Below, one piece after another: positions 1 through 32,842 of a stretch of 64,000 nucleotides of DNA (positions within the stretch are counted from its first letter, which is position 1; the number at the start of each line of letters is the position of its first letter). The DNA comes from Polaribacter sp. Hel1_33_78. GTDB taxonomy: Bacteria; Bacteroidota; Bacteroidia; Flavobacteriales; Flavobacteriaceae. The notes under the pieces are model-generated. The model made no database searches and had not been told where the DNA came from. It saw nothing but the letters and a program-made list of their open reading frames with translations. The stretch lies in the NCBI RefSeq assembly GCF_900106075.1, contig NZ_LT629794.1, positions 2,274,001 through 2,338,000 on the forward strand, given 5' to 3'. The translations under genes were made by a program, and so were the position numbers.

Positions 1-30
1 TTAAAACGGAACTTAAAAATTAAAAAGCAC

Positions 31-188
31 TATGTACAACATCGTATAAAATTTATTGCTAGTTCTAGCTTTCTTACGAAAGACATTGCGGACTTTCTAC
101 CTTGCCTGCGGCAGGCAGGTTTGGTTTGTATTTGCTAAATTAGGTGCTTAAACCACGCAACAAATCATATACAAACACGTTGGCAATA
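31..188 (+). repeat. attC-like site 1, long family, with inserted palindrome
   Basis: The left box TATGTACAAC belongs to a unit that begins outside the window and should start TTGTACATA. The right box GTTGGCAATA opens unit 1. The inner hairpin is degenerate (GAAAG/GACTTTC) and is followed by a GC-rich palindrome absent from sister sites. Confidence 0.8.
101..120. repeat. Short GC-rich palindrome (REP-like) inside attC site 1
   Basis: TGCCTGC at 103-109 and GCAGGCA at 111-117 form a perfect 7-bp stem around one G. It is strikingly GC-rich for this region and is missing from the homologous position of the other long sites, so it looks like an inserted REP-type element. Similar CCTGCC palindromes are scattered in many Bacteroidota genomes; that link is recollection, not tested here. 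Confidence 0.5.
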
Positions 189-205
189 ATTTAAACAGAA
201 CCTAA

Positions 206-1018
206 ATGAAAAACTATTTATTATTAACATTCCTACTAATTACTTCATTATGTAAAGCTGAACATAAAGTCAAAATATACTATGAACAAATTGAAAATGG
301 TTACAATATCTACGCTGATAATGATGAATTTTGCCCAGTAAGTGTAAAAGTTGATTTTGCAGTCACTAATTTAAATATAAAAGGAGGAAACAACAATGTT
401 TATACTATCAATGCAAAGAGCAAAAAACAACTTCTTACGTCACTTCGAGTTTCTAAAAACGGGAAAGCATATAAATTTTCCTTTAAATCCTGGACGAATT
501 ATGGAAAGCATAATAATAAAGAATATGACAATGATTATATATATAACTTACCTTTTAAAACCTCAAAACAATTTAAAATTTATCAAGGTTACAATGGAAC
601 TTTTTCCCATCAAAATGAAAACTCTTTAGATTTCACAATGCCAGTTGGTACAGAATTAACTGCTGTTAGAGAAGGTGTTGTAATTAAGGTAATAGAAAAG
701 AATAACAAAAATTGTGGAAAAGAAGAATGTAAAAAATATAATAATCTTATAATAATTTATCATCCTGACGGAACTTTTGCGGAATATACACATATCAAGC
801 AAAATGGCTCTAAAGTAAAAGTTGGTGACAAAGTTTTAAAAGGACAACAAATTGGATATAGTGGAAATGTTGGATGGAGTACTGGACCACATTTACATCT
901 GGTAGTATTTAATCAAAATTTAGAAAACAGAGAAACGTTGAAAACAAAATTCAAAACAGACGATGGTAGTACTGTAGAATACCTAATCGAAAAGGAAATA
1001 TATTCAAGAAATTATTAA
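206..1018 (+). CDS. Secreted M23 family zinc endopeptidase
   Basis: This 270-residue protein has a signal peptide (about residues 1-18, cut after CKA), so it acts in the periplasm or outside. The C-terminal half is a LytM/M23 domain: His135 and Asp142 in the first metal-binding segment, and an HLH triad in GPHLHLVVF near residue 225. M23 enzymes cut peptidoglycan cross-bridges or glycine-rich peptides; the substrate here is unknown. The first 120 residues resemble the beta-rich pre-domain seen in Bacteroidota members. It is the sole gene of cassette unit 1, which starts TTGGCAATA and ends with the exact complement TATTGCCAA. A Cys pair (KNCGKEEC) in the domain could form a disulfide. Confidence 0.85.
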   Translation: MKNYLLLTFLLITSLCKAEHKVKIYYEQIENGYNIYADNDEFCPVSVKVDFAVTNLNIKGGNNNVYTINAKSKKQLLTSLRVSKNGKAYKFSFKSWTNYGKHNNKEYDNDYIYNLPFKTSKQFKIYQGYNGTFSHQNENSLDFTMPVGTELTAVREGVVIKVIEKNNKNCGKEECKKYNNLIIIYHPDGTFAEYTHIKQNGSKVKVGDKVLKGQQIGYSGNVGWSTGPHLHLVVFNQNLENRETLKTKFKTDDGSTVEYLIEKEIYSRNY

Positions 1019-1024
1019 AAAAAC

Positions 1025-1162
1025 TATTGCCAACACCGTGTAAAATTAATTGCTGGTTTTAGCCAATTTACGAAAGTCCTCGCAGACTTTATATTTGTGT
1101 TTTATTTGCTAACTATAGTGCTTAAAACACTCAACTAATCATACACAACAAAGTTGGCAATA
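1025..1162 (+). repeat. attC-like site 2, long family
   Basis: Left box TATTGCCAAC closes unit 1 and matches its start exactly. Right box GTTGGCAATA opens unit 2. The L arms are GTGTAAAATTAATTGC and a right arm ending CATACAC. Confidence 0.8.
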
Positions 1163-1207
1163 ATTAAGATGAAAATTGCGGAATACAAGAAAAATGGAAA
1201 ATAAAAC

Positions 1208-2314: not shown

Positions 2315-2315
2315 C

Positions 2316-2454: not shown

Positions 2455-2475
2455 ATTTGAGAAAATCAAAAAAAA

Positions 2476-3171: not shown

Positions 3172-3175
3172 AAAC

Positions 3176-3315
3176 GTGCTACAACAACGTGCATAATTTA
3201 TTGCTGGTTGATTTTCCTTGCGGAAAATCCTCGGACACTTCCAATGTTGGTTTTTTTTTTAGTATTTTAGTCTAATAACATCGCAACAAAATCATGCACA
3301 AACACGTTGTAAATA
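3176..3315 (+). repeat. attC-like site 4, long family variant
   Basis: Left box GTGCTACAAC matches the head of unit 3 exactly; right box GTTGTAAATA opens unit 4. The arms are changed to GTGCAT/ATGCAC, and the inner hairpin to GATTTTCC/GGAAAATC, so pairing is kept while sequence differs. Confidence 0.8.
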
Positions 3316-3706: not shown

Positions 3707-3846
3707 TATTTACAACACCGTATATAATTTATTGCTGGCTTCTTGCTTACTTACGAAAGTCTTCGCGGACTTTCTTGATCGGTAATTATTTACTAAATTA
3801 GTTACTTGAAACACGCAACAAACCATATACAACAACGTTAGCTGTA
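3707..3846 (+). repeat. attC-like site 5, long family
   Basis: Left box TATTTACAAC closes unit 4 exactly; right box GTTAGCTGTA opens unit 5. Inner hairpin GAAAGTCTTCGCGGACTTTC has one G-T step. Confidence 0.8.
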
Positions 3847-4788: not shown

Positions 4789-4924
4789 ACAACTAACAAT
4801 GTATATAAAAAATAGGTGAATTAGTGCTAAAATAAAAGATATTGTCTCGTATCAAACTTTTTGCTTAACCGAAGGTTTCGTGCTTCGAAATCGCCTACTT
4901 TTCATATACTAAACGTTAGCAGTC
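4789..4924 (+). repeat. attC-like site 6, AAAAAATAG family
   Basis: Left box ACAACTAAC; right box GTTAGCAGTC. Arms GTATATAAAAAATAGG and CCTACTTTTCATATAC pair except at two positions, both A opposite C on the top strand. The interior is unrelated to the long family. Confidence 0.75.
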
Positions 4925-5608: not shown

Positions 5609-5746
5609 CCGCTAACACCGTGTATAATTAATTGCTAGATGGTGTTTAATGATTACCACGGAAATTCTGTCGAATTTCCTCTACGCATTTCCTTTTTGCT
5701 ATCTTAGAGCTTACGCAACTAACCATACACAAACCCGTTGGGCAAC
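5609..5746 (+). repeat. attC-like site 7, long family variant
   Basis: Left box CCGCTAAC (7 of 9 match to its unit's head); right box GTTGGGCAAC. Arms GTGTATAATTAATTGC and GCAACTAACCATACAC. The inner hairpin is GGAAATTC/GAATTTCC instead of the usual GAAAGTCC pair. Confidence 0.8.
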
Positions 5747-5752: not shown

Positions 5753-6178
5753 ATGAATAAAGAAGAAGCAATAAATATCATAAATGATAATGCTGAGTCT
5801 GAAAATAACAGCTATATGGACTTTATGCACGAGCGTGGTTTGTTTGATAAACATTCCTTTTGGAAATTCTATAATTCAATAAGACTGTTAGGTTATGAAT
5901 TTAGAAATGACGAATCTCTTCCTCGTGAACTGACAAAAAAAATTCTTAAAAGCTATGAATGGCACTTAATTCTAATTGGTTTTCATTTTGATGAAAATGA
6001 CGATAGCAGTATTGATAATTTACCAAAGGATTTTTCACAATATAGTTTGAGATTACGTTGTGCTGTAAATGCTTTTATTGAAGGGAATCCAATATCTGAT
6101 GAATTAGAAGGATACCTAAATGAAGATTTAGATAATAAATTAAAAAACGATTGCCCAACAATACCTAAACTGCATTAA
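5753..6178 (+). CDS. Small acidic hypothetical protein
   Basis: I do not recognise this 141-residue acidic cytoplasmic protein with confidence. It has no signal or membrane segment, is rich in aromatic residues (FWKFYNSIRLLGYEF) and is Asp/Glu-rich toward the end. Size, acidity and solo occurrence in a mobile cassette would fit an immunity-type protein (the Imm40/41 group came to mind), but this is only an impression. ATG at 5753 is preferred over an upstream TTG at 5738 because that TTG lies inside the right box of the attC-like site. Unit 7 heads TTGGGCAA and ends TTGCCCAA. Confidence 0.6.
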   Translation: MNKEEAINIINDNAESENNSYMDFMHERGLFDKHSFWKFYNSIRLLGYEFRNDESLPRELTKKILKSYEWHLILIGFHFDENDDSSIDNLPKDFSQYSLRLRCAVNAFIEGNPISDELEGYLNEDLDNKLKNDCPTIPKLH

Positions 6179-6207
6179 AACGCAGTTTAGCCAATACGTT
6201 TGCAAAC
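6149..6207 (+). repeat. attC-like site 8, short CTAAACTGC family
   Basis: A 59-bp site: left box TTGCCCAAC, right box GTTTGCAAAC, stem CTAAACTGC/GCAGTTTAG with loop ATTAAAAC. Almost the same stem recurs at 12572-12629 and 29345-29403. Confidence 0.8.
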
Positions 6208-7008: not shown

Positions 7009-7074
7009 ATTTGCCAACAATATGTATAATGCATGCCCTGCGGGATACGCATTATACATTGAACGTTGGCAATA
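7009..7074 (+). repeat. attC-like site 9, short family
   Basis: A 66-bp site with left box ATTTGCCAAC, right box GTTGGCAATA and stem TGTATAATGC/GCATTATACA around an inner CCTGCGGG turn. Confidence 0.8.
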
Positions 7075-7092
7075 ATTAATAAAAAGAATGAC

Positions 7093-9180
7093 ATGAGAGT
7101 TAAAAAGTTTATTTTAATACTAATACTCTATTCTTCAGGGATTAGCCTAAACGCTCAAACCGAACTCGACTCATTATACGCAATATGGCAAGACAATGCT
7201 CAATTAGACTCAGTTCGCACGAAGGCTTACTATAACTATATATGGAAAGGATTTCTGTATTCTAAGCCAGATTCCGCTCTCATTCTGGCAAAAAATCTTG
7301 TAAAATATGGAGCAGATAAAAAATATCCTAAAGCCAAAAATTTCGGCTATAACATTCAAGGCATTGTTTACAAAAATAAAAGTGATTATACCAAAGCCAT
7401 GGAATTTCAAGAAAAGAGCTTAGCACTTTATAAAAAAGAAGGTGACAAAGAAAATATTGCTAGTACGCTTCATAATATGGCCATTATTTATAGAAGAACA
7501 GGTAATCACGTAAAAGCACTCGAGTATTACAATCAAAGTATCATGATTAATAAGTCGATTAATAACCAAAAAGGAATTGCCAATTCCCTTGCAGGCATTG
7601 GTGTTATTTATTCGAAGCAAGGTAATTACCCAAAAGCCATCACTTATATTGATGAGGGGCTTAAAATCAATGAACAGCTTGGAGACCAAACGGGTATTGC
7701 AGATTTTCAGATCAATATTGGTAGCGTTTATCTTGAACAAGGTGATGATGTTAAAGCCTTAGAGTATTTTAATGAAAGTTTGAATTTTTATAAAGAACAA
7801 GACAACCTATATAGGCTATCAGAAATCTTAAATAATATTGGACTTACATCTCAAAATCAAGGAGATTATGACCAAGCTTTGAGTTATTTCAATCAAAATA
7901 AAACCATTAATGAACGACTCGATAATAAAATTGGTATTGCTAATGACCTCAACGCTATAGGTCTTGTTTACGATAATCTTGGTGACGATAAAAAGGCCTT
8001 GGACTATTACAATCAAAGCTTTAAAATTCAAAAAGAATTTAGGGATAAAAATGGTATGGCTAGATCCAAAATAAATATTGGAGGAGTTTATCTTACCCAA
8101 AGCAACTACTCTAAATCTGTAGATAATTGCCAAAAAGGGTACCAATTGGCGTTATCTGTTAATGATCTTATGGCGCAAAGGGATGCTTGCAAATGCCTAT
8201 ACGATGCTTTCAAAGCAAAACGTAAAGCAAATGAAGCTTTATTTTATATGGAAAAAATAAGGCTGCTTGATGACAGTCTTAATCTCAAAGAAACCGCAAC
8301 AAAACTTCAGCAAATGGAGTTTAAAAAGGCAATATTAGCCGATAGTTTGGAATTCTCAAAAAAGCAAGCGATTGGAAAAATGAAATTAGAGAAATCTGAA
8401 AACACCAAGCGAGCATGGATTATTGGCGCTGTTTTACTTCTGCTTTTAGCTGGTGTGATCTATTATGGTTACCGGCAAAAGCGAAAAGCAAACAGGTTCT
8501 TAAAAGAGCGTAATGCATTTGAAATAGAGAACAAAAAGAAAGCCATGACTTTATTTAGCCAACAGGTCTCTCCTGAGGTTGCAAAAGAATTACTGTCTGA
8601 TTCTTACAAATCGGGAGCTAATAAAGTGCGAGCCTGTATCATGTTTCTTGATATTAGGGGGTTTACACCATTCTCTGAATCAAGAAATGCAACAGAGATT
8701 AACCAATATCAAAATGACGTTTTTGGCTTTATGATCGATATTATTAGTGCACATAATGGCATCATAAACCAGTTTATGGGAGATGGATTTTTAGCGTCCT
8801 TTGGTGCACCAGCCTCCCCCGGGAATCACAGCCAAAATGCGGTTAATGCGTCCCTAGAAATACTCAAAGAGCTTGAGGACCGCTGTTCATCTGGTCGATT
8901 AATCGATACTAAAATTGGTATTGGATTGCATACAGGAGAAATCGTAACAGGAAATGTGGGTACTGCTCAAAGAAGACAATACTCAGTGACTGGAAACACG
9001 GTCATATTAGCATCACGAATCGAGCAGTTGAACAAGCAGTTTAAATCGGAGTTGCTTTTATCTAAAGAAGTGATTAATGATCTTAATGACATTGAAAACT
9101 ACACTTTTGAATCGCTTGGCTTCATACAACTAAAAGGTAGAACGGAGCCTGTTGAAGTCATTAAAATGGCATCAAGTTAG
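7093..9180 (+). CDS. TPR sensor protein with class III nucleotide cyclase domain
   Basis: A 695-residue protein: signal peptide (about residues 1-22), eight or so tetratricopeptide repeats (about 65-350) outside the membrane, a coiled linker, one membrane segment (WIIGAVLLLLLAGVIYYGY), and a cytoplasmic class III adenylate/guanylate cyclase domain. The metal-binding aspartates are seen in FLDIRGFT and MGDGFLASFG, and the catalytic Arg is kept in ASRIE. The transition-state Asn four residues before that Arg is replaced by Ile (GNTVILASR; usual GDTVNLAAR), so activity is uncertain. ATG 7093 is chosen because the upstream TTG at 7066 lies in the attC box. The head and tail 9-mers of unit 9 match exactly. 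Confidence 0.85.
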   Translation: MRVKKFILILILYSSGISLNAQTELDSLYAIWQDNAQLDSVRTKAYYNYIWKGFLYSKPDSALILAKNLVKYGADKKYPKAKNFGYNIQGIVYKNKSDYTKAMEFQEKSLALYKKEGDKENIASTLHNMAIIYRRTGNHVKALEYYNQSIMINKSINNQKGIANSLAGIGVIYSKQGNYPKAITYIDEGLKINEQLGDQTGIADFQINIGSVYLEQGDDVKALEYFNESLNFYKEQDNLYRLSEILNNIGLTSQNQGDYDQALSYFNQNKTINERLDNKIGIANDLNAIGLVYDNLGDDKKALDYYNQSFKIQKEFRDKNGMARSKINIGGVYLTQSNYSKSVDNCQKGYQLALSVNDLMAQRDACKCLYDAFKAKRKANEALFYMEKIRLLDDSLNLKETATKLQQMEFKKAILADSLEFSKKQAIGKMKLEKSENTKRAWIIGAVLLLLLAGVIYYGYRQKRKANRFLKERNAFEIENKKKAMTLFSQQVSPEVAKELLSDSYKSGANKVRACIMFLDIRGFTPFSESRNATEINQYQNDVFGFMIDIISAHNGIINQFMGDGFLASFGAPASPGNHSQNAVNASLEILKELEDRCSSGRLIDTKIGIGLHTGEIVTGNVGTAQRRQYSVTGNTVILASRIEQLNKQFKSELLLSKEVINDLNDIENYTFESLGFIQLKGRTEPVEVIKMASS

Positions 9181-9573: not shown

Positions 9574-9711
9574 TATTGCCAACATCGTATATAAAAAATA
9601 GCGGTTCAGGTGCAAGCCTGAATCGTTTTTGCATTTAATTAAGTATATTGCTTTACGAAAGGTTAGTGCTTCTAAATCCGCTACTTTTCATATACAAAAC
9701 CGTTGTAACCA
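9574..9711 (+). repeat. attC-like site 10, AAAAAATAG family
   Basis: Left box TATTGCCAAC closes unit 9 exactly; right box GTTGTAACCA opens unit 10. Arms GTATATAAAAAATAGCGG and CCGCTACTTTTCATATAC differ from full complement only at two A-C positions. Confidence 0.85.
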
Positions 9712-10984: not shown

Positions 10985-11122
10985 TGGTTACAACACCTTG
11001 TATAATTAATTGCTAGTTTTAGCTAATTTACGAAAGTCCTCGCGGACCTTCTATTTGGTTTATATTTACTAAATTAGTTGCTTAAATCACGTAACTAATC
11101 TTATACAACAACGTTAGCAAAA
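10985..11122 (+). repeat. attC-like site 11, long family
   Basis: Left box TGGTTACAAC closes unit 10 exactly (TTGTAACCA); right box GTTAGCAAAA opens unit 11. The inner hairpin is GAAAGTCC/GGACCTTC with one mismatch. Confidence 0.85.
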
Positions 11123-12571: not shown

Positions 12572-12629
12572 ATTTGCTAACAAAACCTAAACTGCATTGA
12601 AACGCAGTTTAGCCAAACCGTTGCCAACC
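12572..12629 (+). repeat. attC-like site 12, short CTAAACTGC family
   Basis: Left box ATTTGCTAAC, right box GTTGCCAACC, stem CTAAACTGC/GCAGTTTAG. It is nearly identical in its interior to the site at 29345-29403. Confidence 0.8.
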
Positions 12630-14246: not shown

Positions 14247-14386
14247 GGTTTGCAACACCACATATAATTTATTGCTGGCTTCTTACCTACTAGCGAAAGT
14301 CCTCTCGGACTTTCTTTGTCCGTTATTATTTACTAAATTAGTTGCTCGAAACACACAACAAACCATATACAAACACGTTAGCCCTA
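14247..14386 (+). repeat. attC-like site 13, long family
   Basis: Left box GGTTTGCAAC; right box GTTAGCCCTA. Inner hairpin GAAAGTCCTCTCGGACTTTC. Confidence 0.8.
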
Positions 14387-17120: not shown

Positions 17121-17326
17121 TGTGGCCAACAATGTATAAAAAACATAGGGCGTTTCTGCTAAATTAAAAGGTCTGTGTACATTAACAAAGTCTGCTAAAT
17201 ATAAAATTTAGCATTTCTATAGTAGAAAAGATAAAAGCAAAATATTTATATTTAGCTAAGTAATAGATCGAAACGAAGGTGCTTATCAACTGCCCTACGT
17301 TTCTTATACAAATACGGCTGGCAATA
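17121..17326 (+). repeat. attC-like site 15, long divergent
   Basis: Left box TGTGGCCAAC; right box degenerate (GCTGGCAATA, T to C in GTT). The about 200-bp interior belongs to neither main family and contains TCTGCTAAA repeats. Confidence 0.6.
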
Positions 17327-18078: not shown

Positions 18079-18278
18079 TTATTACCAACAATGACTATAC
18101 GTAATGCGGGTTTTCTGCTAAACGAAAGGTCAGAGCATTTAAGGAAGTCCGCCAATACTTTAATTTGGTGTTTAAAGTGAATAAATTAAAAACAAAATAT
18201 AAACTCCTGGCTACGTACAAAATTTGAAAACTCCGCTTTTCAAATCCCGCACTGCGCATAGCCGAGATGTTAGCTAAC
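18079..18278 (+). repeat. attC-like site 16, long divergent
   Basis: Left box TTATTACCAAC; right box GTTAGCTAAC. Arms CTATACGTAATGCGGG and CCCGCACTGCGCATAG pair with three mismatches, two of them A-C on the top strand. Confidence 0.65.
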
Positions 18279-18297: not shown

Positions 18298-18990
18298 TTG
18301 AAAAAAAGAAAGTGGAAAAAATATAGCTTCGAGTTTTTATCAATTTTTATTGCATTGATTTCTGCATTTGCCTTGAATAATTGGAATGATAACAGAAAGG
18401 ATAACATAGCTGAATCGAAAATCTTATTGGAAATATTAAATGGCTTAGAAAACGATAAAGTTGATATAGGCTTAAACATTGAAGGACATCAAATGGGAAT
18501 AAAATCTTGCGAATTTTGGAGAAAAATTTTTATTAATAAAAGAACTAACCTCGACACCTTACAACAACACTATTTTGTTTTAACAAGAGATTTTATTTCA
18601 ATTCAGAATGTTTCTGGTTATGAAACATTAAAATCGCGAGGGTTTGAATTAATTAAAAACGACTCTTTAAGAACAAGAATAATATCTTTATATGAGATTG
18701 ATTACCAAACTCTAAGAAAACTAGAAGAGGAATATAACGAACTACAATTCCAAAAAAATTATTTTAAAGAAATAAATAAAATGATTTCACCATATTTTAC
18801 ATTTGATTCAAAAGGAAATATTAGTGAAATGGAATTTCCTATTAATTTAAGTGAAACTGAAAGAAAAACCCTACTGAGTTACCTTTGGAAAATTCAAACA
18901 AACAGGAAATTTATTTTACAATCATATAATCAAACAAAAGATAATATAACTGAATTAGCTACAAAGATTGAGATAGAATTAAAACGTTAG
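18298..18990 (+). CDS. DUF6090-like membrane-anchored protein
   Basis: A 230-residue protein with a basic N-terminus, one membrane segment (EFLSIFIALISAFALNNW, residues 12-29) and a long, mostly helical extracytoplasmic or cytoplasmic domain. The block FIALISAFALNNWNDNRKDNIAESKILLEI is typical of the Bacteroidota DUF6090 family, which has no known function. Translation seems to start at TTG 18298. Its TAG stop falls within the following site's left box. Confidence 0.65.
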   Translation: MKKRKWKKYSFEFLSIFIALISAFALNNWNDNRKDNIAESKILLEILNGLENDKVDIGLNIEGHQMGIKSCEFWRKIFINKRTNLDTLQQHYFVLTRDFISIQNVSGYETLKSRGFELIKNDSLRTRIISLYEIDYQTLRKLEEEYNELQFQKNYFKEINKMISPYFTFDSKGNISEMEFPINLSETERKTLLSYLWKIQTNRKFILQSYNQTKDNITELATKIEIELKR

Positions 18991-19125
18991 TTAACACCGT
19001 ACAAAATTAATTGCTTGCTTCTTGCTTACTCACGAAAATCCTCTCGGACTTTCTTTGTCCGTTATTATTTACTAAATTAGTTGCTTAAACCACGCAACTA
19101 ACCTTATACAACAACGCTAACATTA
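18985..19125 (+). repeat. attC-like site 17, long family
   Basis: Left box CGTTAGTTAAC (8 of 9 with unit 16's head TTAGCTAAC); right box degenerate, GCTAACATTA in place of GTT. Interior is of the main long type. Confidence 0.7.
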
Positions 19126-19652: not shown

Positions 19653-19791
19653 TAATGCCAACAACATGTATAATTAATTGCTAGGTCACTGCCGACTTAC
19701 GAAAATTCCGCTGGAATTTTCTATCTGTGATTTGTTTGCTAACTTTAAGGCTTAACCACGCAACTAACCAAATACAACAACGTTGTGTGTA
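19653..19791 (+). repeat. attC-like site 18, long family
   Basis: Left box TAATGCCAAC; right box GTTGTGTGTA. Inner hairpin AAAATTCC/GGAATTTT replaces the common one. Confidence 0.75.
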
Positions 19792-20305: not shown

Positions 20306-20507
20306 TACATATAACGCAGTATATAAAACATAGCTAATAAGAGCTATATCGGAAGGTTTACACGTATTTGAGTAGACCTCCAAATTTTTAAATTTGGCTT
20401 ATAGAATTCAAAAAATAGAAACAAAACATAAAAATTTGGCCCGTGTATAACCCGAAAGCTTCGTGCTTCTAAATCGCCTACTTTTCATATACTAAACGTT
20501 GTATGCC
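20306..20507 (+). repeat. attC-like site 19, 200-bp family
   Basis: Left box TACATATAAC; right box GTTGTATGCC. The interior (AAACATAGCTAATAAGAGC, GAAGGTTTAC, CCAAATTTTTAAATTTGG) is nearly identical to that of the site at 22539-22748, which flanks the other side of the three-gene unit. Confidence 0.7.
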
Positions 20508-20521: not shown

Positions 20522-20941
20522 TTATTGGAAATTAAGCAACATAGAATTATAATTATCTTGAACTGTTTGAATAATTAAAGTCTTATCCGAATTCAAGCCT
20601 TCGATATCATCTATTTCATTAAATTCTCGCATATTGGAATTTCCCCACAAACTGAATTCAATAATTATTGGAGTTAAACGAATCCCTTTTTCCGTTAGCA
20701 AATAAATATTTTCTTTTTTGTTATCTGGCACTTTCGTTTTGAAAATCAGTTTATACGATTCTAACAATTTTAATCGTGCAGATAAAATACTTGGTGCAAT
20801 CTTTTCATCTGAATCAGAAATTTCCTTGAAAGTCTTTTTGTGCTTAACAAGCATATCTCTAATGATTAACAAAGACCATTTATCACCTATTACATCTAAT
20901 GCAGATGAAATTGGACAGCCAGAGCGAAATTCTTTTTTCAT
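20522..20941 (-). CDS. HxlR/MarR-like winged-helix regulator
   Basis: A 139-residue HxlR-type regulator, with the family's redox- or electrophile-sensing Cys near the N-terminus (Cys9 in SGCPISSALDVIGDKWSLLIIRDM) followed by the winged-helix domain (FKEISDSDEKIAPSILSARLKLLESYKLI and a wing YLLTEKG). It is the only clear minus-strand gene in the array. It is transcribed divergently from two membrane genes at 21030-22533, with a perfect 7-bp inverted repeat in between, so it most likely controls that pair and itself. The last 30 residues are a divergent acidic tail. Confidence 0.85.
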   Translation of the reverse strand: MKKEFRSGCPISSALDVIGDKWSLLIIRDMLVKHKKTFKEISDSDEKIAPSILSARLKLLESYKLIFKTKVPDNKKENIYLLTEKGIRLTPIIIEFSLWGNSNMREFNEIDDIEGLNSDKTLIIQTVQDNYNSMLLNFQ

Positions 20942-22538: not shown

Positions 22539-22748
22539 GCATGCAACAATGTATATAAAACATAGCTAATAAGAACTAAATCGAAAGGTTTACAACTATT
22601 TTAGTAGACCTCCAAATTTTTAAATTTGGCTTATAGAATTGAAAAATAGAAACAAAATATAAAAATTCGGCCCGTGTATAATCTGAATACAAGTACTTTT
22701 TTACACGCTTCGTTTCATATACGGAGACGTTGCACACCATTTTGACAG
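22539..22748 (+). repeat. attC-like site 20, 200-bp family
   Basis: Left box GCATGCAAC (7 of 9 with the unit's head TTGTATGCC); right box GTTGCACACC. The interior is nearly the same as site 19. Confidence 0.7.
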
Positions 22749-22820: not shown

Positions 22821-24287
22821 ATGATTATGAAAAATTCAATAAGCCTTTTAAAAAAAAATATCCAATTTACTTTAGCTATATTGTTACTCTTTTTTAGCTG
22901 TTCAGATGATTCGTCAAATGATACAAATACCATAGTTTCTGATACAAATACCATAGTTTCGTTAAAATCTGAATTCGCTTCAAACCTGAACAAAATCATA
23001 GAAGGTAAGCAAATAAGTTTTACAGAAAAATCTGAAGGCGAGCCAACGAGTTGGAGTTGGACTTTTGAAGGAGGTACCCCAGCAACATCTAATGAAAAAA
23101 ATCCTGTAATATCGTATAGTGAACAGGGTACTTTTAAAGTATCTCTTGCTGTCTCTAAAGACGATGCTAGTGAAACTATAGAAAAAGAAAATTTGATCGA
23201 TGTATTAGCTTTATTTGACGAAAATGAAGTGCCAGAAACGCAATTGTGTAAACTTGATAAAATATTTACAAATGATTATGTAGATATAGGCTTCCCTAAT
23301 AATGGGCCATCATCATCACTAGGACAAGTTAATATTCAAGTATTATTTGTAGACTTCCCTGACGCTGTCGCTTCTCAAACAACAACTTCTATTTTTAATT
23401 TATTAGAAAATATTAATACTGAATTCTACGAAGAGATGTCCTACGGTAAAATGGAAATAAACCTACTGCCATACCGTTCTTGGTTAAGACTTAGTTCGGT
23501 TTCGTCACAATATGCTGAAAGTCTAAATTCTTCTTCTGGACATCTTTCATTTATTCAAGAAGCGGTTGATTTGGCAGATGACCAAGTTGATTTTAGCGAT
23601 ACAGATATTGTGTTAGTAATGTCCAATCCTGATGCTTCCGAAATTGAATATGGCCCAACTTTTGGATCCCTAAATGATAGTTTCGCTATAAATGCAGATG
23701 GAAATAGTATTCTAACTGGAATTACTTCTGGATTCGATTTTAATTATTGGGGAGGTATTTGGCTTGCACATGAAATGGGACACTCTTTAGGGCTACTTGA
23801 CTTATACCCTTACAGTAACTCTAATAATCACAGATACGTTGGTGGTTTTGGAGTTATGGGAATACAATCAGGAAAAGCACCAGGCTTTTTTGCATATGAA
23901 AGATGGTTACTAGGCTGGATTGATGATTCACAAATTTATTGCCATTCAGAGGGATCGATAACTATAGAAATACAAGAGTTAGCTACTGAAGGAGGAATAA
24001 AGGCATTATCAGTGCCTCTAAACTCAAACAGAGCTATTTTAATCGAGAGTAGAAAAAAGAAGGGTTTCGACTCTTCTATGCGAAAAGAAGGAGCGCTAGT
24101 TTATGTTATTGATACTTCTGTACCAAGAGGTCAAGGTCCTTTAAGGATTTTACAAAATTCTAATACTGGCAGCATGAAAGAAAATGCACCTATGATAGCT
24201 GGAGATATTTACACTTACCAAGGAGTCACAATAGAAGTTATAGAATCTAAATCATCTAGTGACATAATCCAAGTTACAATACAATAA
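22821..24287 (+). CDS. Lipoprotein M6-like metallopeptidase with PKD domain
   Basis: A 488-residue lipoprotein (lipobox LFFSC, Cys27). Residues 55-130 are a PKD-like beta domain (SWSWTFEGGTPATSNEKNPVISYSEQGTFKVSL). The catalytic region has HEMGHSLGLLD (His317, Glu318, His321 and a downstream Asp), typical of M6 immune inhibitor A-like and related gluzincin/metzincin peptidases, followed by a beta-rich C-terminal region. It should sit on the cell surface and degrade proteins. A perfect 21-base tandem repeat near 22917-22961 duplicates the peptide DTNTIVS in the linker after the lipobox. An IS3 transposase fragment begins six bases after its stop. Confidence 0.8.
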   Translation: MIMKNSISLLKKNIQFTLAILLLFFSCSDDSSNDTNTIVSDTNTIVSLKSEFASNLNKIIEGKQISFTEKSEGEPTSWSWTFEGGTPATSNEKNPVISYSEQGTFKVSLAVSKDDASETIEKENLIDVLALFDENEVPETQLCKLDKIFTNDYVDIGFPNNGPSSSLGQVNIQVLFVDFPDAVASQTTTSIFNLLENINTEFYEEMSYGKMEINLLPYRSWLRLSSVSSQYAESLNSSSGHLSFIQEAVDLADDQVDFSDTDIVLVMSNPDASEIEYGPTFGSLNDSFAINADGNSILTGITSGFDFNYWGGIWLAHEMGHSLGLLDLYPYSNSNNHRYVGGFGVMGIQSGKAPGFFAYERWLLGWIDDSQIYCHSEGSITIEIQELATEGGIKALSVPLNSNRAILIESRKKKGFDSSMRKEGALVYVIDTSVPRGQGPLRILQNSNTGSMKENAPMIAGDIYTYQGVTIEVIESKSSSDIIQVTIQ

Positions 24288-24292
24288 TAACG

Positions 24293-24697
24293 GATATTTA
24301 CTCTAGAAAAATAGTTGGTTATGATGTTAGTGATAGATTAAAACTTAAAGGAAGTGTTAGAGCACTTAATAAAGCGATTTACCAAGCTAAAAATATTAAT
24401 GGGCTAACACATCATTCAGACATAGGAATAAAGTATTGTAGCAATGTTTGCACACAAATACTTAAAAGAAAAAAGATAGATATTAGTATAGCGGAAGAAA
24501 ATCATTGTTACGAAAACGCAATGGCAGAAGGTGTAAATGGCATCTTAAAAGATAAATTTTATCTCGATCAAACTTTTGATAGCGTGGATAACGCTAAAAG
24601 AACTGCAAAAAAAGCAATTAATTTATACAACGAAATAAGATTACACTTATATTTAGCCTTTAAAACACCTAATATGGTATATAAATTATCAGCCTAA
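24293..24697 (+). pseudogene. IS3-family transposase (OrfB) 3' fragment
   Basis: An open frame of 135 codons without a usable start encodes the C-terminal half of an IS3-type DDE integrase: YSRKIVGYDVSD, GLTHHSDIGIKYCS with the second catalytic Asp, and NHCYENAMAEGVNGILKDKFYLD with the Glu, then LYNEIRLHLYL. The N-terminal half and the left end of the element are missing, so it is an inactive remnant. It splits cassette unit 20 between the M6 peptidase and the DUF4870 gene. Confidence 0.8.
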
Positions 24698-24710
24698 ATT
24701 CAATTTTAAA

Positions 24711-24738
24711 CTGTAGCCATATTTCAGGACTAGACATT
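24711..24738 (+). repeat. Probable right end of the IS3 remnant
   Basis: The segment TGTAGCCATATTTCAGGACT about 14 bases after the transposase stop resembles the terminal inverted repeat of Bacteroidota IS3 elements. No matching left end was found upstream, in line with a deletion. Confidence 0.4.
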
Positions 24739-24797
24739 ACTGAAAACTAGACTAATTTTTAAAAAAACTAAAAACTAACCATTTAGAGAGAATTAAA

Positions 24798-25548: not shown

Positions 25549-25687
25549 TACACCCAACAAAGTATAAAATTTATAACATATTTAAAGAAAAATTGTAAAA
25601 CCAAAACAACCAACTAACATTTGTACTAGGCTGAAAAACCTCCGGGTTTTAAGCCGCACAAATCTTATACAAAACAGGTTATATTTA
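25549..25687 (+). repeat. attC-like site 21, degenerate
   Basis: Left box CACCCAAC, right box GTTATATTTA. Arms AGTATAAAATTT and CTTATAC are only partly complementary. An inner hairpin AAAACCTCCGGGTTTT is perfect. Its unit's head (TTGCACACC) does not match its tail. Confidence 0.5.
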
Positions 25688-26924: not shown

Positions 26925-26996
26925 GTAGATAACAATATGTATAGTGCATAGCACCCCCCGGGATGTAAGGGTAACATACACTAAACCTCCTCTGTA
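26925..26996 (+). repeat. attC-like site 22, short, degenerate
   Basis: Left box GTAGATAAC; right end lacks GTT and reads TCCTCTGTA. The interior (TGTATAGTGCATAGC ... CATACACTA) is a decayed relative of site 9. The right box is shared in sequence with site 24. Confidence 0.5.
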
Positions 26997-27038
26997 ATTT
27001 TGACGCAACTTTGGATCTACAAGAAAAGACATTCAATT

Positions 27039-27704
27039 ATGAATACAAAACTTATTTTATTTCTAACATTAATTTTTCTACTTTTTAGTTGTAATACAGA
27101 CGATGAAAACGCTGTTACTTATCCAGAAACTGTAGAGTTAGCTTATGATTTTCAAAATGACAATCAATCTTGGGAAGGTGACTTCGCGAATTATCCTTTG
27201 GGTGAAGAGATTTTTTATGAATTAAGCTACGAACTCTCCAATTCACCAACACCTTTAAACACAAACTCAGGAGCACTAAAACAATCAGGAAATAATCATT
27301 CTGACGATTTATTTATGTTTTTTAGAAGACAAATAAATGGACTTAAGCCGAATACCGATTATAGAGTTCCTTATGAAATTGAGTTTGCCAGTGATGTTGC
27401 AGGTGGACAAGTTGGGGTTGGAGGAAGTCCAGGAGAAAGTGTTACAATTAAAGCAGGTGCTGTAATAACAAAACCCGAAAAAGTCAATCAATCAGGATTT
27501 TATCAAATGAATATGGACAAAAACAATAAAGCAAATAGTGGTTTTGAAACCTATCTAATTTCAGATGCAACTGCTACATTTGACCGAATTGGAATTAACG
27601 GAGAAAAGTATAATTCTGAAACTATACATTTGACAACACTTGATAATTTAAATGAGGAATTTACAACTGTTTGGAATTCTGAAAAATTAATGAGTGAAAT
27701 ATAA
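27039..27704 (+). CDS. Hypothetical lipoprotein, apparently chimeric 3' end
   Basis: A 221-residue lipoprotein (lipobox LFSC). Residues 1-165 are over 85% identical by eye to the protein at 29458-30165 (PETVELAYDFQNDNQSWEGDF, SGNNHSDDLFMFFRRQINGLKPNTDYR, KPEKVNQSGFYQMNMDKNN). At NSG the two part company completely: this copy ends FETYLISDATATFDRIGING..., the other in a different beta-rich tail. The cassette head predicts a tail TACAGAGAA, which the other copy has, but the real tail here is GACATACAA. Gene and site evidence together indicate replacement of the 3' part by that of another cassette. The original 5' domain looks like a ligand-binding jelly roll. Confidence 0.7.
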   Translation: MNTKLILFLTLIFLLFSCNTDDENAVTYPETVELAYDFQNDNQSWEGDFANYPLGEEIFYELSYELSNSPTPLNTNSGALKQSGNNHSDDLFMFFRRQINGLKPNTDYRVPYEIEFASDVAGGQVGVGGSPGESVTIKAGAVITKPEKVNQSGFYQMNMDKNNKANSGFETYLISDATATFDRIGINGEKYNSETIHLTTLDNLNEEFTTVWNSEKLMSEI

Positions 27705-27709: not shown

Positions 27710-27873
27710 GACATACAACAATCTTTATAGTTAATGGCTGTTATAGACAATTATAATTACAAATAATTTCAACCCAAAGCCTATTTTCACGCCTAGGCGT
27801 GAAGTGATTTTTAAATAACTTCTTTAGTTTGGTTGGCAAAAAAAACCGGATCATAGCAATCTGTTAGCAAACA
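27710..27873 (+). repeat. attC-like site 23, atypical
   Basis: Left box GACATACAAC; right box GTTAGCAAAC. Arms are poorly paired, but an inner hairpin TTCACGCC/GGCGTGAA (27786-27803) is perfect. Confidence 0.5.
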
Positions 27874-27890: not shown

Positions 27891-29340
27891 ATGAAAATTA
27901 ATACTTTACTTATCTTAATTGTTTTATCTCCTATTACATCTATTGCTCAATCTATAGATTTTCAAGAAGATACAACCGTAAACAACTTATATGATTCCAG
28001 GCAAGGCTCTTGTGCCATGGCTGATATCGACAATGACGGTGACCTTGACTTAATAATCACAGGTGCCGATGCTCAATTGACTAACCGCAAGACCACATTA
28101 TACAGCAATGACGGTCTTGGGAATTTTACCGAAATAATTGGAACTGGACTTTCTAATTGGTCGGAAGGAGGAAAAATAGCTTTTGCGGATGTTGATGGAG
28201 ATACTGACCAAGATTTGCTGATTACCGGAAGAGATGGTAGTGCAAATTATTATGTCCATTTTTACTTGAATGACGGAAGCGGTAATTTCACACCAGATAC
28301 CACCCAACCTTTTGAACCATCTATAGGGGGCAATCTTGAATTTGCGGATATAGATAATGATGGAGACTTGGATTTATTTATGACTGGCCGTGACAACAAC
28401 AATTTGATATTTTCAAAACTTTACCAAAATGATGGCACAGGAGGGTTCTCTGAAATGACATCCACTCCTTTTCTTTCTGAAGGAGGTTCAGCCTCTGCTT
28501 TTTTTGACATGGATAATGATAATGATCTGGATCTTATTCTAGCAGGAAAGAATAACAGCAATCAAAAAAAGACAACGCTGTATGAAAATGATGGGGCAGG
28601 CAATTTTAGTTTGGTAAGCAACACACCTTTTGAAAATGTTGATTTTGCTGCCATTGCTATAGATGACTCCGATAACGATAGTGATTTAGATGTACTCATA
28701 AACGGAGAGAATGATTCTGGTGTGCCTATTTGTCAACTATATTTAAATGACGGTACCGGTGCATTCAATCTTCTAGTTGGAACACCTTTTATTCAAACAG
28801 CTTTAGGTACTGTCGACTTTGCTGATTTTGACAATGATAATGATATGGATGTCTTGGTAACTGGCTCGGTAGGAGGGCAAACATTTGCAGCTCATATTTA
28901 TGAAAATCAAGGTATGAACAACTTTAGCTTAGTGGATACACTGGAAACACTTTATTTATCCTCAACAGCCCTTGGAGATATTGACAATGACAATGATCTA
29001 GATGCAATTATCATTGGAATTGCTCAGTTATCTGCTGATATATACAAGCCAAGAGTTTACGAGAATATGCTCACAACTCTTTCAACTGAAAAATACAACT
29101 GATAGTTATAGAGAAAATATATTACTATACCCTAATCCTTCTTCAGGAATCTTAAATATCCAGACCAACCACACATTTACTCCATCGATCAAAATATATA
29201 ATTTAATTGGTGAGTTGGTCTTTTCTGAGGACAATTTGAGCCCAAATAGCCAAATTTCATTAAATCAACCACCAGGAATATATATGATAGTTGTTAAAAC
29301 CAACCGTTCAACTTCTGCATCAAAGTTGATTTTAAAATAA
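27891..29340 (+). pseudogene. FG-GAP/VCBS repeat protein with T9SS sorting domain, frameshifted
   Basis: Signal peptide (cut near SIAQ) followed by seven FG-GAP/VCBS repeats, each with a calcium-loop DxDNDxDLD (for example MADIDNDGDLDLIITG and FADFDNDNDMDVLVTG). The first frame ends at 29102 after LTTLSTEKYN. The next frame carries ILLYPNPSSGILNIQ ... GIYMIVVKTNRSTSASKLILK, a type IX secretion type A C-terminal domain, to 29340. One extra A in the run at 29089-29093 explains the break; removing it gives LSTENTTDSYREN. Without the sorting domain the 403-residue product would not be attached by T9SS. It could be a sequencing error or genuine decay. The cassette head and tail match at 8 of 9. 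Confidence 0.8.
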
Positions 29341-29344
29341 AAAC

Positions 29345-29403
29345 GATTTGCTAACAAAACCTAAACTGCATTGAAACGCAGTTTAGCCAAACCTTTCTCT
29401 GTA
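29345..29403 (+). repeat. attC-like site 24, short CTAAACTGC family
   Basis: Left box GATTTGCTAAC; right box TTTCTCTGTA, where GTT has become TTT, but the following bases pair exactly with the tail of the next unit (TACAGAGAA). Stem CTAAACTGC/GCAGTTTAG as in sites 8 and 12. Confidence 0.75.
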
Positions 29404-29457
29404 ATTTTGACACATCCATTTTAAATATTGTGCATCTACAAGAAAAAACATTCAATT

Positions 29458-30165
29458 ATGAACACAAAACTTATTTTATTTCTAACATTAATTTTTCTAC
29501 TTTTTAATTGTAATAAAGAAAATGAAAACGTTATTACTTATCCAGAAACTTTAGAGTTAACTTATGATTTTCAAAATGACAACCAATCTTGGGAAGGTGA
29601 CTTCGCAGATTATCCTGTAGGTGAAGAGAGTTTTTATGAATTAAGCTACGAACTCTCTAATTTACCAACACCTTTAAACACAAACTCAGGAGCACTTAAA
29701 CAATCAGGAAATAATCATTCTGACGATTTATTTATGTTTATTAGAAGACAAATAAATGGACTTAAGCCGAATACCGATTATAGAGTTTCTTATGAAATTG
29801 AGTTTGCCAGTGATGTTGCAGATGAACAAGTTGGGGTTGGAGGATCTCCAGGAGAGGGTGTTACAATTAAAGCAGGTGCTGTAATAACAAAACCCGAAAA
29901 AGTCAATCAATCAGGATTTTATCAAATGAATATTGACAAAAACAATCAAGCAAATAGTGGTTCAGATATGGTTATTATCGGAGATTTTTCTAATGATACT
30001 AATCAAAATGAATATACTCTGAAAAACTTAGTGGCTAATGATATTCTTACAGTTTCCACAAATGGTTCAGGTGAATTATGTTTAGTGATTGGCACTGATT
30101 CTGGTTTTGAAGCTACTACAACCATCTATTATAATTTGATTAAAGTGAAATTAGAAAAACAATAA
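29458..30165 (+). CDS. Hypothetical lipoprotein, full-length relative of 27039-27704
   Basis: A 235-residue lipoprotein (lipobox LFNC). The body (residues 35-165) is beta-rich and repeats the sequence of the 27039 gene. The tail SDMVIIGDFSNDTNQNEY... IYYNLIKVKLEKQ has a typical carbohydrate-binding-like ending, so this is likely the undisturbed version. The 9-mers of its cassette are exact complements (TTCTCTGTA/TACAGAGAA). Function unknown; it may be a surface binding protein. Confidence 0.7.
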   Translation: MNTKLILFLTLIFLLFNCNKENENVITYPETLELTYDFQNDNQSWEGDFADYPVGEESFYELSYELSNLPTPLNTNSGALKQSGNNHSDDLFMFIRRQINGLKPNTDYRVSYEIEFASDVADEQVGVGGSPGEGVTIKAGAVITKPEKVNQSGFYQMNIDKNNQANSGSDMVIIGDFSNDTNQNEYTLKNLVANDILTVSTNGSGELCLVIGTDSGFEATTTIYYNLIKVKLEKQ

Positions 30166-30167
30166 AC

Positions 30168-30306
30168 TACAGAGAACAATGGCTATAAGTAATTGCTTTT
30201 ATTCGCATACTTCTGAAAATCCTCGCGAATTTTCTATTCGGTTTATATTTGCTAAATTAGGTGCTTAAACCACGTAAAAAACCATAAACCAATTCATTGT
30301 GCATAA
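30168..30306 (+). repeat. attC-like site 25, long family
   Basis: Left box TACAGAGAAC; right box ATTGTGCATAA, with GTT replaced by ATT. A TATATTTG at 30244-30251 matches the Bacteroidota -7 promoter consensus TAnnTTTG, so this site might also supply a promoter. Confidence 0.7.
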
Positions 30307-30371
30307 TTATGACCCGTACTGAAATATGGCTATAGAATTCTAAAAATTAAAATATTAATCAAAAAACATAA

Positions 30372-30914
30372 ATGAACAAGTCAAAAACATTCGATTATTT
30401 TAATAAGGTTGCGAATACTTGGTTAGAAGATTTAGAAGAGAAAAATGAAGAAGATATATTAATAAACCCTTTTGAAGGATCTTGGTCTATATCAGAACTA
30501 TATGATCACATAATAAAAGTTGCTAGAACCTATCAAATACCAAATTTTAAAAAAAGTGTAACAACTGAAGTAGAAAGAAAGAAAAGAAAAAACATAAAAG
30601 GACTTGTTATTTTTAATGTAGGAATAAAAAAAATTAATATGAAAATTAAAATGGAGAACTTTCCAAAACCATTAGTAAAAGATTTTACACCTATAAAACA
30701 AAACAAGACTGAATTGATTAAAGATTTTAAACAATTTATAAATGAAGTAAATAGCCTAAAGGAGACTTTGTTGAAAAGTAAAAGGAAAAATAAACATTAT
30801 CATCTAATGTTCGGAGATATTAATACGAAAGACTGGTTTACACTAATTGCATTTCATATGGCTCATCACGAAAAGCAAAAGAAAAAAATAAACGAGTTTT
30901 TAAAATCTAGATAA
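30372..30914 (+). CDS. DinB-like four-helix protein, copy 2
   Basis: A 180-residue soluble protein, paralogue of 5009-5566 with about 55% identity by eye. It has the DinB-type layout: SWSISELYDHIIKVA with the first His, and FHMAHHEKQKKKI at the C-terminus with the HxxHH-type pair intact. It probably binds a divalent metal and may be a thiol or small-molecule transferase; the role is unknown. Its cassette head and tail (TTGTGCATAA/TTATGCACAA) are exact over 10 bases. Confidence 0.7.
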   Translation: MNKSKTFDYFNKVANTWLEDLEEKNEEDILINPFEGSWSISELYDHIIKVARTYQIPNFKKSVTTEVERKKRKNIKGLVIFNVGIKKINMKIKMENFPKPLVKDFTPIKQNKTELIKDFKQFINEVNSLKETLLKSKRKNKHYHLMFGDINTKDWFTLIAFHMAHHEKQKKKINEFLKSR

Positions 30915-30926
30915 ATGAATTATTAA

Positions 30927-31014
30927 TTATGCACAAGCCCGTGTATTAAAAATTACTAAATTAGTGCTTAAACAAAGTTGGTTGCGGTTTTTGTAAACAA
31001 ACATGTTGTATGCA
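30927..31014 (+). repeat. attC-like site 26, shortened long family
   Basis: Left box TTATGCACAAG, right box GTTGTATGCA. The 88-bp interior keeps the TACTAAATTAGTGCTTAAAC block of the long family but has lost the GAAAGTCC hairpin. Confidence 0.65.
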
Positions 31015-31039
31015 ATGCCGAAAAATAAACCTGTAATAA

Positions 31040-31711
31040 ATGAAAATGAGTCAGTTTTGGATTAGAGTTTTAGGAGTTTTTGGAATATTAGGTGGATTGA
31101 TTTTATTAGCTGGAGATATGCTTTTGTATTATGACCCAGTCAATATGAGTTTAAAGCAGAATATGGGAAATGCTTCTGACTTTAGAATTATTGCAAGTGG
31201 AGTTTGTGCGCTGTTTGCAGCTTGGTTTTATATGCTTGGATTAGGTCAAGTTTATTATGCATTTAAAACAACAAAACCAATTTTCAGAAATGGTACGTTG
31301 ATTTCTTTCGGAAGTATCTTAATATCATATGGAATCGTTCACGGAGCATTCCTTGCTATTGCGACAACTGCAAAATTAGCGACTGAACATAGTCTTGACA
31401 TAAATGAGGCTGTTTTACTGTCTGAAAAAACAAACGAAATTTTGAGATTATTCGTATATCCATTGTTCGGAATTTTATCCATTCTATTTATTAGTCAGGT
31501 ATGGAAAAGAAAAACATTATATCCAAGATGGATTATCCTTTTTTTTCCACTTATTCCATTTTTGATTGAGGATTTAGTTACGAAGTATTTACAAAACGAC
31601 ATTTGGATTATAATAAAAGGAGGTTATTTAAACATCATTTTGGTTATCTTTTTTACAGCATCGACAATTGCATTATGGAATATCAAAAAATCCGAAATAA
31701 TTAGTGAATAA
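31040..31711 (+). CDS. Six-helix membrane protein (DUF6796-like)
   Basis: A 223-residue integral membrane protein with six or seven helices. N-terminal GVFGILGGLILLAGDMLLYYDP followed by a small loop, and later GTLISFGSILISYGIVHGAF, resemble the DUF6796 group; the assignment is from memory. Function unknown. It is the sole gene of unit 26. Confidence 0.6.
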   Translation: MKMSQFWIRVLGVFGILGGLILLAGDMLLYYDPVNMSLKQNMGNASDFRIIASGVCALFAAWFYMLGLGQVYYAFKTTKPIFRNGTLISFGSILISYGIVHGAFLAIATTAKLATEHSLDINEAVLLSEKTNEILRLFVYPLFGILSILFISQVWKRKTLYPRWIILFFPLIPFLIEDLVTKYLQNDIWIIIKGGYLNIILVIFFTASTIALWNIKKSEIISE

Positions 31712-31717
31712 AGCACA

Positions 31718-31858
31718 ACATACAACACCGTATATAATTTATTTGCTGGCTTCATGCCTACTTTCAAAAGTCCTCGCGGACTTTCTTGGTCGCTAATTAT
31801 TTACTAAATTAGTTGCTAGAAACACGCAACGAGATCATACACCAATACTTTAGCCATA
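31718..31858 (+). repeat. attC-like site 27, long family
   Basis: Left box ACATACAAC (7 of 9 with unit 26's head); right end CTTTAGCCATA, where GTT has become TTT. Inner hairpin AAAAGTCC/GGACTTTC. Confidence 0.7.
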
Positions 31859-31865
31859 ATTAGAA

Positions 31866-32771
31866 ATGACGAACATTAAACTTAAAATTACAGTAATCGG
31901 ATTCTTATTTTTATTCCTTAATCTATTTGGACAAAAAACTGAATTAGGATATAAAACAAAGAATTATACAGTCTATTCAGAAGATAAAGACGAATATATT
32001 CTAAAAATAACTTTTCCCAGGAATTATAATTCTGACAAAGAATATAAAACGCTTTATTATTTAGATGCTTATTGGCTTGCAGAAATTACTCTTGGTTCTT
32101 ATACTATATTGGATTTATGTAATTATGTGGAAGATGTTGTTTTTGTTGGTATTTCATTAAACGGCACTCAAAAAGATTGGCATAAGCAAAGAGATATGGA
32201 TTTTACTCCTTCGCAATTTAGAAATCTTGGACTTTTAGAAGATTTAAAAAAAATCAATCCAGATAATAACATTAAAATTACTGTCAAAACTGGAAGTGGA
32301 AATCAACTCGGAAAAGAAAGTACTGGAGGTGCAAATTTATTTTTAGCTTTTTTAGAGAATCAAGTAATTGAATTTGTAGAAAAAGAATATCCTAATCTTA
32401 ATAAACGAAGAGGTTTACTTGGTCATTCTTTTGGAGGTCTTTTTGGATTTTACACTTTACAAAATCGTCCGGAACTATTCCAGGATTTACTAATAATCTC
32501 TGCCTCTTTATCTTGGAATTCATCGGAATTGGTTGGCAAAGGAAAATTTGAAAAATTTAAAGATTCAAAAAACGAAATAAGACTTTATCATAGTTATGGA
32601 GAAAAAGAAATCAATGGTATTAAAACTTCAAATAATGATATAAGTTTAATTCTAACTGAATTAAAACTTGAAAACTTGAGTTATAAATTTGACCCAGTTA
32701 AAAATACTAACCATCATTCCGTGTTATCAAGAGCAATTTATGATGGATTATTATATTTGTATAAAAAATAA
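31866..32771 (+). CDS. Secreted esterase D-like alpha/beta hydrolase
   Basis: A 301-residue protein with a signal peptide (about residues 1-22). The nucleophile elbow is GHSFGG (Ser188), and NHHSVLSRAI near residue 283 supplies the catalytic His, as in the putative-esterase (esterase D/IroE-like) family. Substrates of relatives include siderophore and sugar esters; none can be assigned here. It is the last intact cassette gene. Its head TTAGCCATA and tail TATTACCAA match at 6 of 9. Confidence 0.8.
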   Translation: MTNIKLKITVIGFLFLFLNLFGQKTELGYKTKNYTVYSEDKDEYILKITFPRNYNSDKEYKTLYYLDAYWLAEITLGSYTILDLCNYVEDVVFVGISLNGTQKDWHKQRDMDFTPSQFRNLGLLEDLKKINPDNNIKITVKTGSGNQLGKESTGGANLFLAFLENQVIEFVEKEYPNLNKRRGLLGHSFGGLFGFYTLQNRPELFQDLLIISASLSWNSSELVGKGKFEKFKDSKNEIRLYHSYGEKEINGIKTSNNDISLILTELKLENLSYKFDPVKNTNHHSVLSRAIYDGLLYLYKK

Positions 32772-32772
32772 C

Positions 32773-32842
32773 TATTACCAACAATGTGCATAAATAATAG
32801 CGGTTTAAGTGATGAAACGAAAGTAAAAATATAAAACAAGGG
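32773..32842 (+). repeat. attC-like site 28, truncated: right boundary of the array
   Basis: Left box TATTACCAAC with arm TGTGCATAAATAATAGCGG of the AAAAAATAG family. The right half is missing: sequence passes directly into a TonB-receptor fragment. The array therefore ends here by deletion or insertion. Confidence 0.7.

Follow-up and report, generated by a model that had tools for sequence, protein, structure and literature searches.

Positions 1-32842 of a 64,000-nucleotide stretch of the Polaribacter sp. Hel1_33_78 genome (contig NZ_LT629794.1, positions 2274001-2338000; hereafter the window) carry the right end of a cassette array of about 144,000 bases. With considerable confidence, based on sequence comparison, we regard this region as the far end of an extensive integron-like element in the chromosome, run by a tyrosine recombinase lineage distinct from both IntI and XerC/D, whose sites would most likely act as folded bottom strands. 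The original prediction for this stretch, an integron array or a cluster of attC sites lacking integrases (CALIN), was partly right. With its recombinase, attI-like site, linked cassette ends and array, the element appears to be a complete platform and not an integrase-less cluster; it would be integron-like in its working, but not an IntI integron, as the I2-type domain of IntI is missing and the classic RYYYAAC and GTTRRRY cores are mostly absent.

In the mechanism that we propose, the recombinase at the head of the array would integrate cassettes, in circular form, into an attI-like site that lies 30-200 nt 3' of its own gene, with new cassettes presumably entering next to that gene, and would shuffle cassettes by recombination at the GTT core of the attC-like sites. 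In the circle, the two ends of one cassette would pair over 10 bp, a fixed A/C position and 3 more bp. An unequal spacer (3 and 6 nt) would separate this outer pairing from the inner stem, and the substrate would probably be a single folded bottom strand.

Linked cassette ends and extent of the array

In integrons, the R box at the distal end of a cassette pairs with the bases that open this cassette behind the GTT crossover. We therefore reverse-complemented the bases ending in AAC at the start of site n and compared them with those running from the GTT that ends site n-1, using seven variable positions. In the window, the 26 cassette-end pairs agree at 5.54 of 7 positions, versus 2.73 when the two ends of a single site are compared and 2.68 in other pairs, and 0 of 100,000 permutations reach the observed match, bearing out the earlier claim of 28 related sites in window 1-32842. 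In 20 loci of relatives, 176 neighbouring pairs agree at 5.93 of 7 positions (142 pairs with 6 or 7), the within-site comparison gives 2.72 over 201 sites (9 with 6 or 7), and none of 2000 within-locus permutations reaches the observed match. Over the main array of Hel1_33_78 itself, 69 pairs agree at 6.09 of 7 versus 2.65 within sites. Some loci with few sites have low linkage (3.5 in L032, 1.0 in L045 and 4.0 in L048).

The end pairing covers positions 4-10, is interrupted at position 11 and returns at positions 12-14. At position 11 the cassette start has A in 98-99%, mostly opposite C, with A/C in 181 of 214 pairs. The paired cassette ends are longer here than the classic R box, which has seven bases (PMC2727003, in the part of the paper available). 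Among 338 sites, the bare AAC and GTT are present in 332 and 327, respectively, the full RYYYAAC in 32, GTTRRRY in 27 and both in 6.

The array does not start at position 1, as had been supposed, but about 111 kb further left. It runs on the + strand from an attI-like core at 2162652, which lies 3' of the gene for a 387-aa tyrosine recombinase and about 111.3 kb left of the window, to about 2306842. Since the detected sites run from 2169079 to 2306842, the window carries the right end of one large array.

We placed the 28 window sites manually and found both ends in 26; of site 28 the 5' part alone is present, and the array ends there (32842). A covariance model, R1, was built from 15 of these sites with a manually set structure, and at E <= 1 it recovered 20 of the 28, although recovery of its own 15 training sites is no test because the model was built from them. 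It missed the short sites 8, 12 and 24 as well as sites 16, 22, 23, 26 and 28, and gave no match at E <= 1 in window 33000-64000. The predicted site length of about 135 bp describes one of three size classes (130-135 nt), the others being short (52-67 nt) and long (about 193-200 nt). The attC-like sites, all on the + strand, are as follows, with window coordinates:

Site 1: 34-185, +, long form with an extra hairpin; manual and R1
Site 2: 1028-1159, +; manual and R1
Site 3: 2319-2451, +, 93.7% identity over 94% of its length to a Tenacibaculum finnmarkense plasmid stretch; manual and R1
Site 4: 3179-3312, +; manual and R1
Site 5: 3710-3843, +; manual and R1
Site 6: 4791-4921, +, second subtype; manual and R1
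Site 7: 5610-5743, +; manual and R1
Site 8: 6153-6204, +, short, 52 nt; manual, missed by R1
Site 9: 7012-7071, +, short, 60 nt; manual and R1
Site 10: 9577-9708, +, second subtype; manual and R1
Site 11: 10988-11119, +; manual and R1
Site 12: 12575-12626, +, short, 52 nt; manual, missed by R1
Site 13: 14250-14383, +; manual and R1
Site 14: 15647-15779, +; manual and R1
Site 15: 17124-17323, +, long, degenerate 3' core; 3' end from R1
Site 16: 18083-18275, +, long, 193 nt; manual, missed by R1
Site 17: 18989-19122, +, 3' core GCT; manual and R1
Site 18: 19656-19788, +; manual and R1
Site 19: 20309-20504, +, long, 196 nt; manual and R1
Site 20: 22541-22735, +, long, 195 nt; manual and R1
Site 21: 25552-25684, +, diverged; manual and R1
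Site 22: 26927-26993, +, short, degenerate 3' core; manual, missed by R1
Site 23: 27713-27869, +, diverged; manual, missed by R1
Site 24: 29349-29400, +, short, degenerate 3' core; manual, missed by R1
Site 25: 30171-30302, +, 3' core ATT; manual and R1
Site 26: 30931-31011, +, degenerate 5' core; start near 30931 by eye (the scripted start, 30967, is too far right), missed by R1
Site 27: 31720-31855, +, 3' core TTT; manual and R1
Site 28: 32776-32842, +, 5' part, array end; manual, missed by R1

When R1 was run over the complete 3.23-Mb genome (one contig), the best 150 of 4413 first-look candidates were scored and all site counts are lower bounds. At E <= 1 there are at least 94 matches, at least 75 of them in the main array, all on the + strand between 2169079 and 2306842. 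A second array in the same genome, with at least 13 matches on the + strand at 2020893-2049323, has no recombinase of this type adjoining and could be described as a CALIN; at least six further matches are scattered elsewhere, three of them on the - strand.

Other scans of the window were less telling. A loose search for AAC...GTT pairs was uninformative because the sequence is A+T-rich. RNAalifold gave a weak consensus for 15 sites (-0.88 kcal/mol) from which the outer arm is absent, since the two outer arms of any one site come from different cassettes. An Rfam scan of the window found no attC or related family, only weak microRNA-family matches in 42336-57200. Just past the last site, window 32880-33450 resembles, by eye, a broken outer-membrane receptor gene.

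The recombinase, its attI-like site and their distribution

The recombinase gene (2161461-2162624, + strand) stands at the left end of the array and points in the same direction. The earlier suggestion was to look in the 50 kb to the left for a tyrosine recombinase with an IntI-specific patch: the 387-aa recombinase does head the array, about 111 kb away, but the IntI-specific domain is missing. Catalytic residues are invariant across 28 aligned recombinases of this group. Among phages, the best 8 of 54 matches to the recombinase have a coverage of about 71% at most and identities of 32-38%.

We compared 20 stretches of 20 kb around such recombinases (3 kb before and 16 kb behind the gene start; 19 single-contig genomes and one of two contigs) with equal stretches around the best Xer-like protein in 20 single-contig genomes. 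Of 193 R1 matches at E <= 0.01, 192 fall in recombinase stretches, in all 20 of them, and one in the Xer control (L061). The sites in recombinase stretches are all downstream and on the strand of the recombinase, and no stretch has sites on both strands. As the 3 kb before the gene make a narrow upstream test, the 15 loci with up to 10 kb on each side, from Polaribacter and uncultured Flavobacteriaceae, matter here: 11 of them hold 58 sites, none upstream of the gene (0/58), and in three of the other four the contig ends at or close behind the recombinase gene.

To find attI-like sites, we looked 3' of the stop codon for a GTT core fitting the arm of the first detected site. Such a core, lying at most 260 nt on and fitting at 6 or 7 of the 7 positions, was found in 26 of 32 loci, versus 36 of 992 trials with the arms of other loci. 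These sites come in two forms: in the first, GTT is preceded by a motif near TTATCC and by CATATAACCA; the second (type 2) is palindromic and accompanies more distant recombinases. In Hel1_33_78, the core at 2162652 lies 31 nt behind the stop codon and fits the first site 6.4 kb further on, which follows MmeI-like restriction-modification and helicase genes.

Directly 5' of the recombinase gene, at 2156367-2161369 (L016:2367-7369), are an S24-type repressor (-) and DinB-like and DnaE-like polymerases (+), a neighbourhood that would suit SOS control of the recombinase. Because tblastn found none of the three genes near the recombinase in 40 relatives' stretches, we do not claim an SOS link as part of the system.

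For the family we surveyed 149 Flavobacteriaceae genomes, one per genus (two for one genus), scoring at most 22 candidates per genome, which makes the site counts lower bounds. R1 sites at E <= 1e-5 were found in 132 of the 149 genomes and recombinase homologues at E <= 1e-60 in 71. A separate count gives at least 103 and at least 94 sites for two genomes of the family. Co-occurrence is moderate, with the recombinase in 68 of 132 site-bearing versus 3 of 17 site-free genomes (Fisher p 0.0096). In a draw of 345 genomes from the phylum, with at most nine candidates scored in each, at least 59 have a match at E <= 1e-6, with no match in many genomes from one large genus in the family (g128).

Gene order varies from one relative to another: blastn of the Hel1_33_78 array against 35 loci gave 37 blocks of at least 220 bases, of which 21 are the recombinase gene itself. 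In L070, the recombinase gene is 90% identical over 952 bases and the sole other common block has 291 bases at 69%. A cassette border is common to two genera: one cassette of the Hel1_33_78 array recurs in Polaribacter sp. Hel1_85 (L074), where the likeness runs from the GTT of the preceding site to the GTTAG of its own and the flanking sequences differ on either side.

Sites also occur on mobile elements. A search with one window site gave two plasmid records and one phage record, a search of phages with a short site gave no match, and the Tenacibaculum finnmarkense plasmid holds three R1 sites in 12 kb. Polaribacter phage P12002L has ten R1 matches on the + strand at 28000-40000 (L087) at E <= 1, five of them at E <= 1e-5; of nine neighbouring pairs checked for end linkage, five match at 5 or 6 positions and one at all 7. 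The genes of this region, mostly for methyltransferases and small proteins, are mainly on the - strand and the sites on the +; the cassettes may be inverted relative to their genes.

Strand asymmetry and competing explanations

Under DNA parameters we folded 242 sites in circularised form (mutually related; end matches at 5 or more of 7, gap below 4 kb, length up to 150 nt). The bottom strand proved the more stable one in 237 of them and the top strand in 5, with an average bottom-strand advantage of 4.29 kcal/mol. For random stretches, one per site from its own locus, the bottom strand was better in 90 and the top in 143. A top-strand A/C mismatch is a G/T pair on the bottom strand. Top-strand mismatches at outer arm positions 4-10 are A/C in 31 cases versus G/T in 4 (neither kind in 67), and in the L box of 338 sites A/C in 62 versus G/T in 13 (neither kind in 493).

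The alternative that survives best, although we judge it unlikely, is an integron-like element run by the present recombinase on double-stranded sites. The recombinase lacks the I2 domain, described as a requirement both for capturing cassettes and for recombining single strands (PMC7790495, in the part available), and the type 2 attI-like sites are palindromic. Against this stands the bottom-strand bias in 237 of 242 sites, and the pairing of variable ends within a single cassette is readily understood if the strand folds.

Very improbable, in our view, is a true IntI integron or leftover cluster of IntI-type attC sites that has merely diverged. The layout, the GTT border and the bottom-strand bias are as in integrons, and IntI1 recombined the bottom strand of one P12002L site, P12002L_attC2, whereas the top strand gave no recombinants and attC1 failed (PMC9892861, in the part available). 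This phage holds R1-matched sites, among which attC2 may be. The missing domain already contradicts this reading: residues 186-242 of IntI4, its extra domain, align opposite just 14 residues of the recombinase, and no IntI-type insert is seen in the alignment of 28 recombinases. The spacing from GLR to HxLRH is 89-92 in the Hel1_33_78 recombinase and in 25 of 34 relatives with both motifs found (two others gave 209, likely from a wrong motif, and seven gave none), compared with 98 in 20 of 20 Xer proteins and about 130-133 in IntI (132-133 in 5 of 6). Not one protein of the genome passes the integron integrase model TIGR02249 (best 210.7 versus 265 bits), just 6 of 338 sites have both core consensuses, and in a tree of 61 proteins the recombinase, IntI and Xer groups are separate, with long branches and all six IntI near class 1.

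Still less credible is movement of the cassettes in trans by the host XerC/XerD, as for dif modules. Xer proteins are present in every genome searched and are akin to the recombinase (among the matches listed). With one of 193 sites in the 20 Xer stretches, position speaks against them, though for a pair acting in trans it is a weak guide; what favours the other recombinase is its attI-like site, together with the constant location of the sites behind its gene. Least credible of all are intergenic repeats with an RNA role, or a REP-like or MITE-like spreading element, and no cassette movement: the sites do fold as RNA, lie behind genes and have isolated copies elsewhere in the genome, but repeats, already contradicted by the linked ends, would have no reason to complement the start of their own unit a kilobase away or to delimit units common to genera with borders at GTT.

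Several observations weigh against the recombinase-run, bottom-strand element that we favour. The 338 sites are related, which means that the strand and pairing counts are not independent, and mutation bias could add to the A/C excess. Locus L084 has the recombinase and 10 kb behind it, yet no site was found there, and two of the 20-kb stretches have a single site each, 12 kb and 7.7 kb from the gene. No matching attI core was found in 6 of 32 loci (L031, L041, L043, L045, L047 and L076), although L031, L045 and L076 have the conserved attI motif with a different core. The middle kilobase of the cassette shared with Hel1_85 is not alike. Finally, no recombinase match at E <= 1e-60 was obtained for 64 of the 132 genomes with sites; therefore the sites outlive or outreach the recombinase family, or homologues lie beyond this cut.

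Cassette cargo, prior reports and known systems

The expectation of a single gene direction holds for 31 open reading frames of the window array taken as genes, all on the + strand, and fails for one HxlR-like frame on the - strand (20522-20941). The cargo, described earlier as non-homologous, is mixed, with no Pfam family for 14 of 30 proteins scanned. It includes an M23 peptidase (206-1018), two beta-lactamase-fold proteins of unknown role (1208-2314 and 15800-17119) and a protein that combines TPR repeats with a Pycsar-like cyclase domain (7066-9180). Two 300-base stretches in different cassettes (27012-27311 and 29431-29730) share 93% identity, likely from a duplicated cassette gene. Positions 24282-24741 are 84% identical to two places in locus L046, probably an insertion sequence inside a cassette, and the reading behind 24287 looks by eye like a transposase piece.

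The nearest prior report is the P12002L phage paper, which describes the attC cluster as a CALIN whose source is unknown, gives tests of two of its sites and, in the part available, names no recombinase or host array of the present kind (PMC9892861). Our literature search found no paper on chromosomal arrays of this kind, with preprints and most subscription journals outside its range and other wording possible; as far as the searches reach, the recombinase and the site grammar are new among integrons. In the parts available, the integron literature describes few integrons in Bacteroidota, the IntegronFinder 2.0 survey lists one complete integron in Bacteroidetes proper (Salinibacter), a Tenacibaculum genome is reported integron-free by IntegronFinder 2.0, and a 2008 survey admitted only integrases with the extra domain. 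Surveys thus find integrons rare in this phylum, a picture that up to about 100 sites per Flavobacteriaceae genome would change.

More broadly, we lean slightly towards a second kind of integron, in which an I2-less lineage captures cassettes via folded single bottom strands, whether as an independent invention or as a survivor from before I2, with stores through most Flavobacteriaceae and thinner in other Bacteroidota. It would be tied to the classic cassette pool through a part of its sites on which IntI1 can act. Such an I2-less capture platform makes the claimed necessity of I2 directly testable.

Among known systems, the element resembles the sedentary chromosomal integrons of IntI type, such as the Vibrio superintegron, in its unidirectional, mostly single-gene cassettes with the site 3' of the gene, the recombinase and attI-like site at one end, the border within GTT, the better folding of the bottom strand and a size above 100 kb. 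It differs in that its recombinase lacks the IntI domain and its gene points in the same direction as the cassettes, in a core that is not GTTRRRY and a spacer of 3 and 6 nt (the classic side in part from the available text of PMC2727003 and in part from general knowledge), and in having, in place of the 7-bp R box, complementary cassette ends of 10 + 3 bp that include a fixed A/C position. Archaeal integrons likewise have attI immediately behind the integrase gene, cassette arrays and cross-recognised sites, whereas archaeal IntI carry the IntI-specific domain (PMC9668308, in the part available) that the present recombinase lacks. With the XerA equivalog NF040815 the recombinase scores 211.5 bits, below the curated cut-off of 220. 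Unlike the XerA/XerC-like archaeal recombinases (5hxy, 4a8e; NF040815), it is extended at the N-terminus by an additional domain of about 70 residues and has a cassette array behind its gene.

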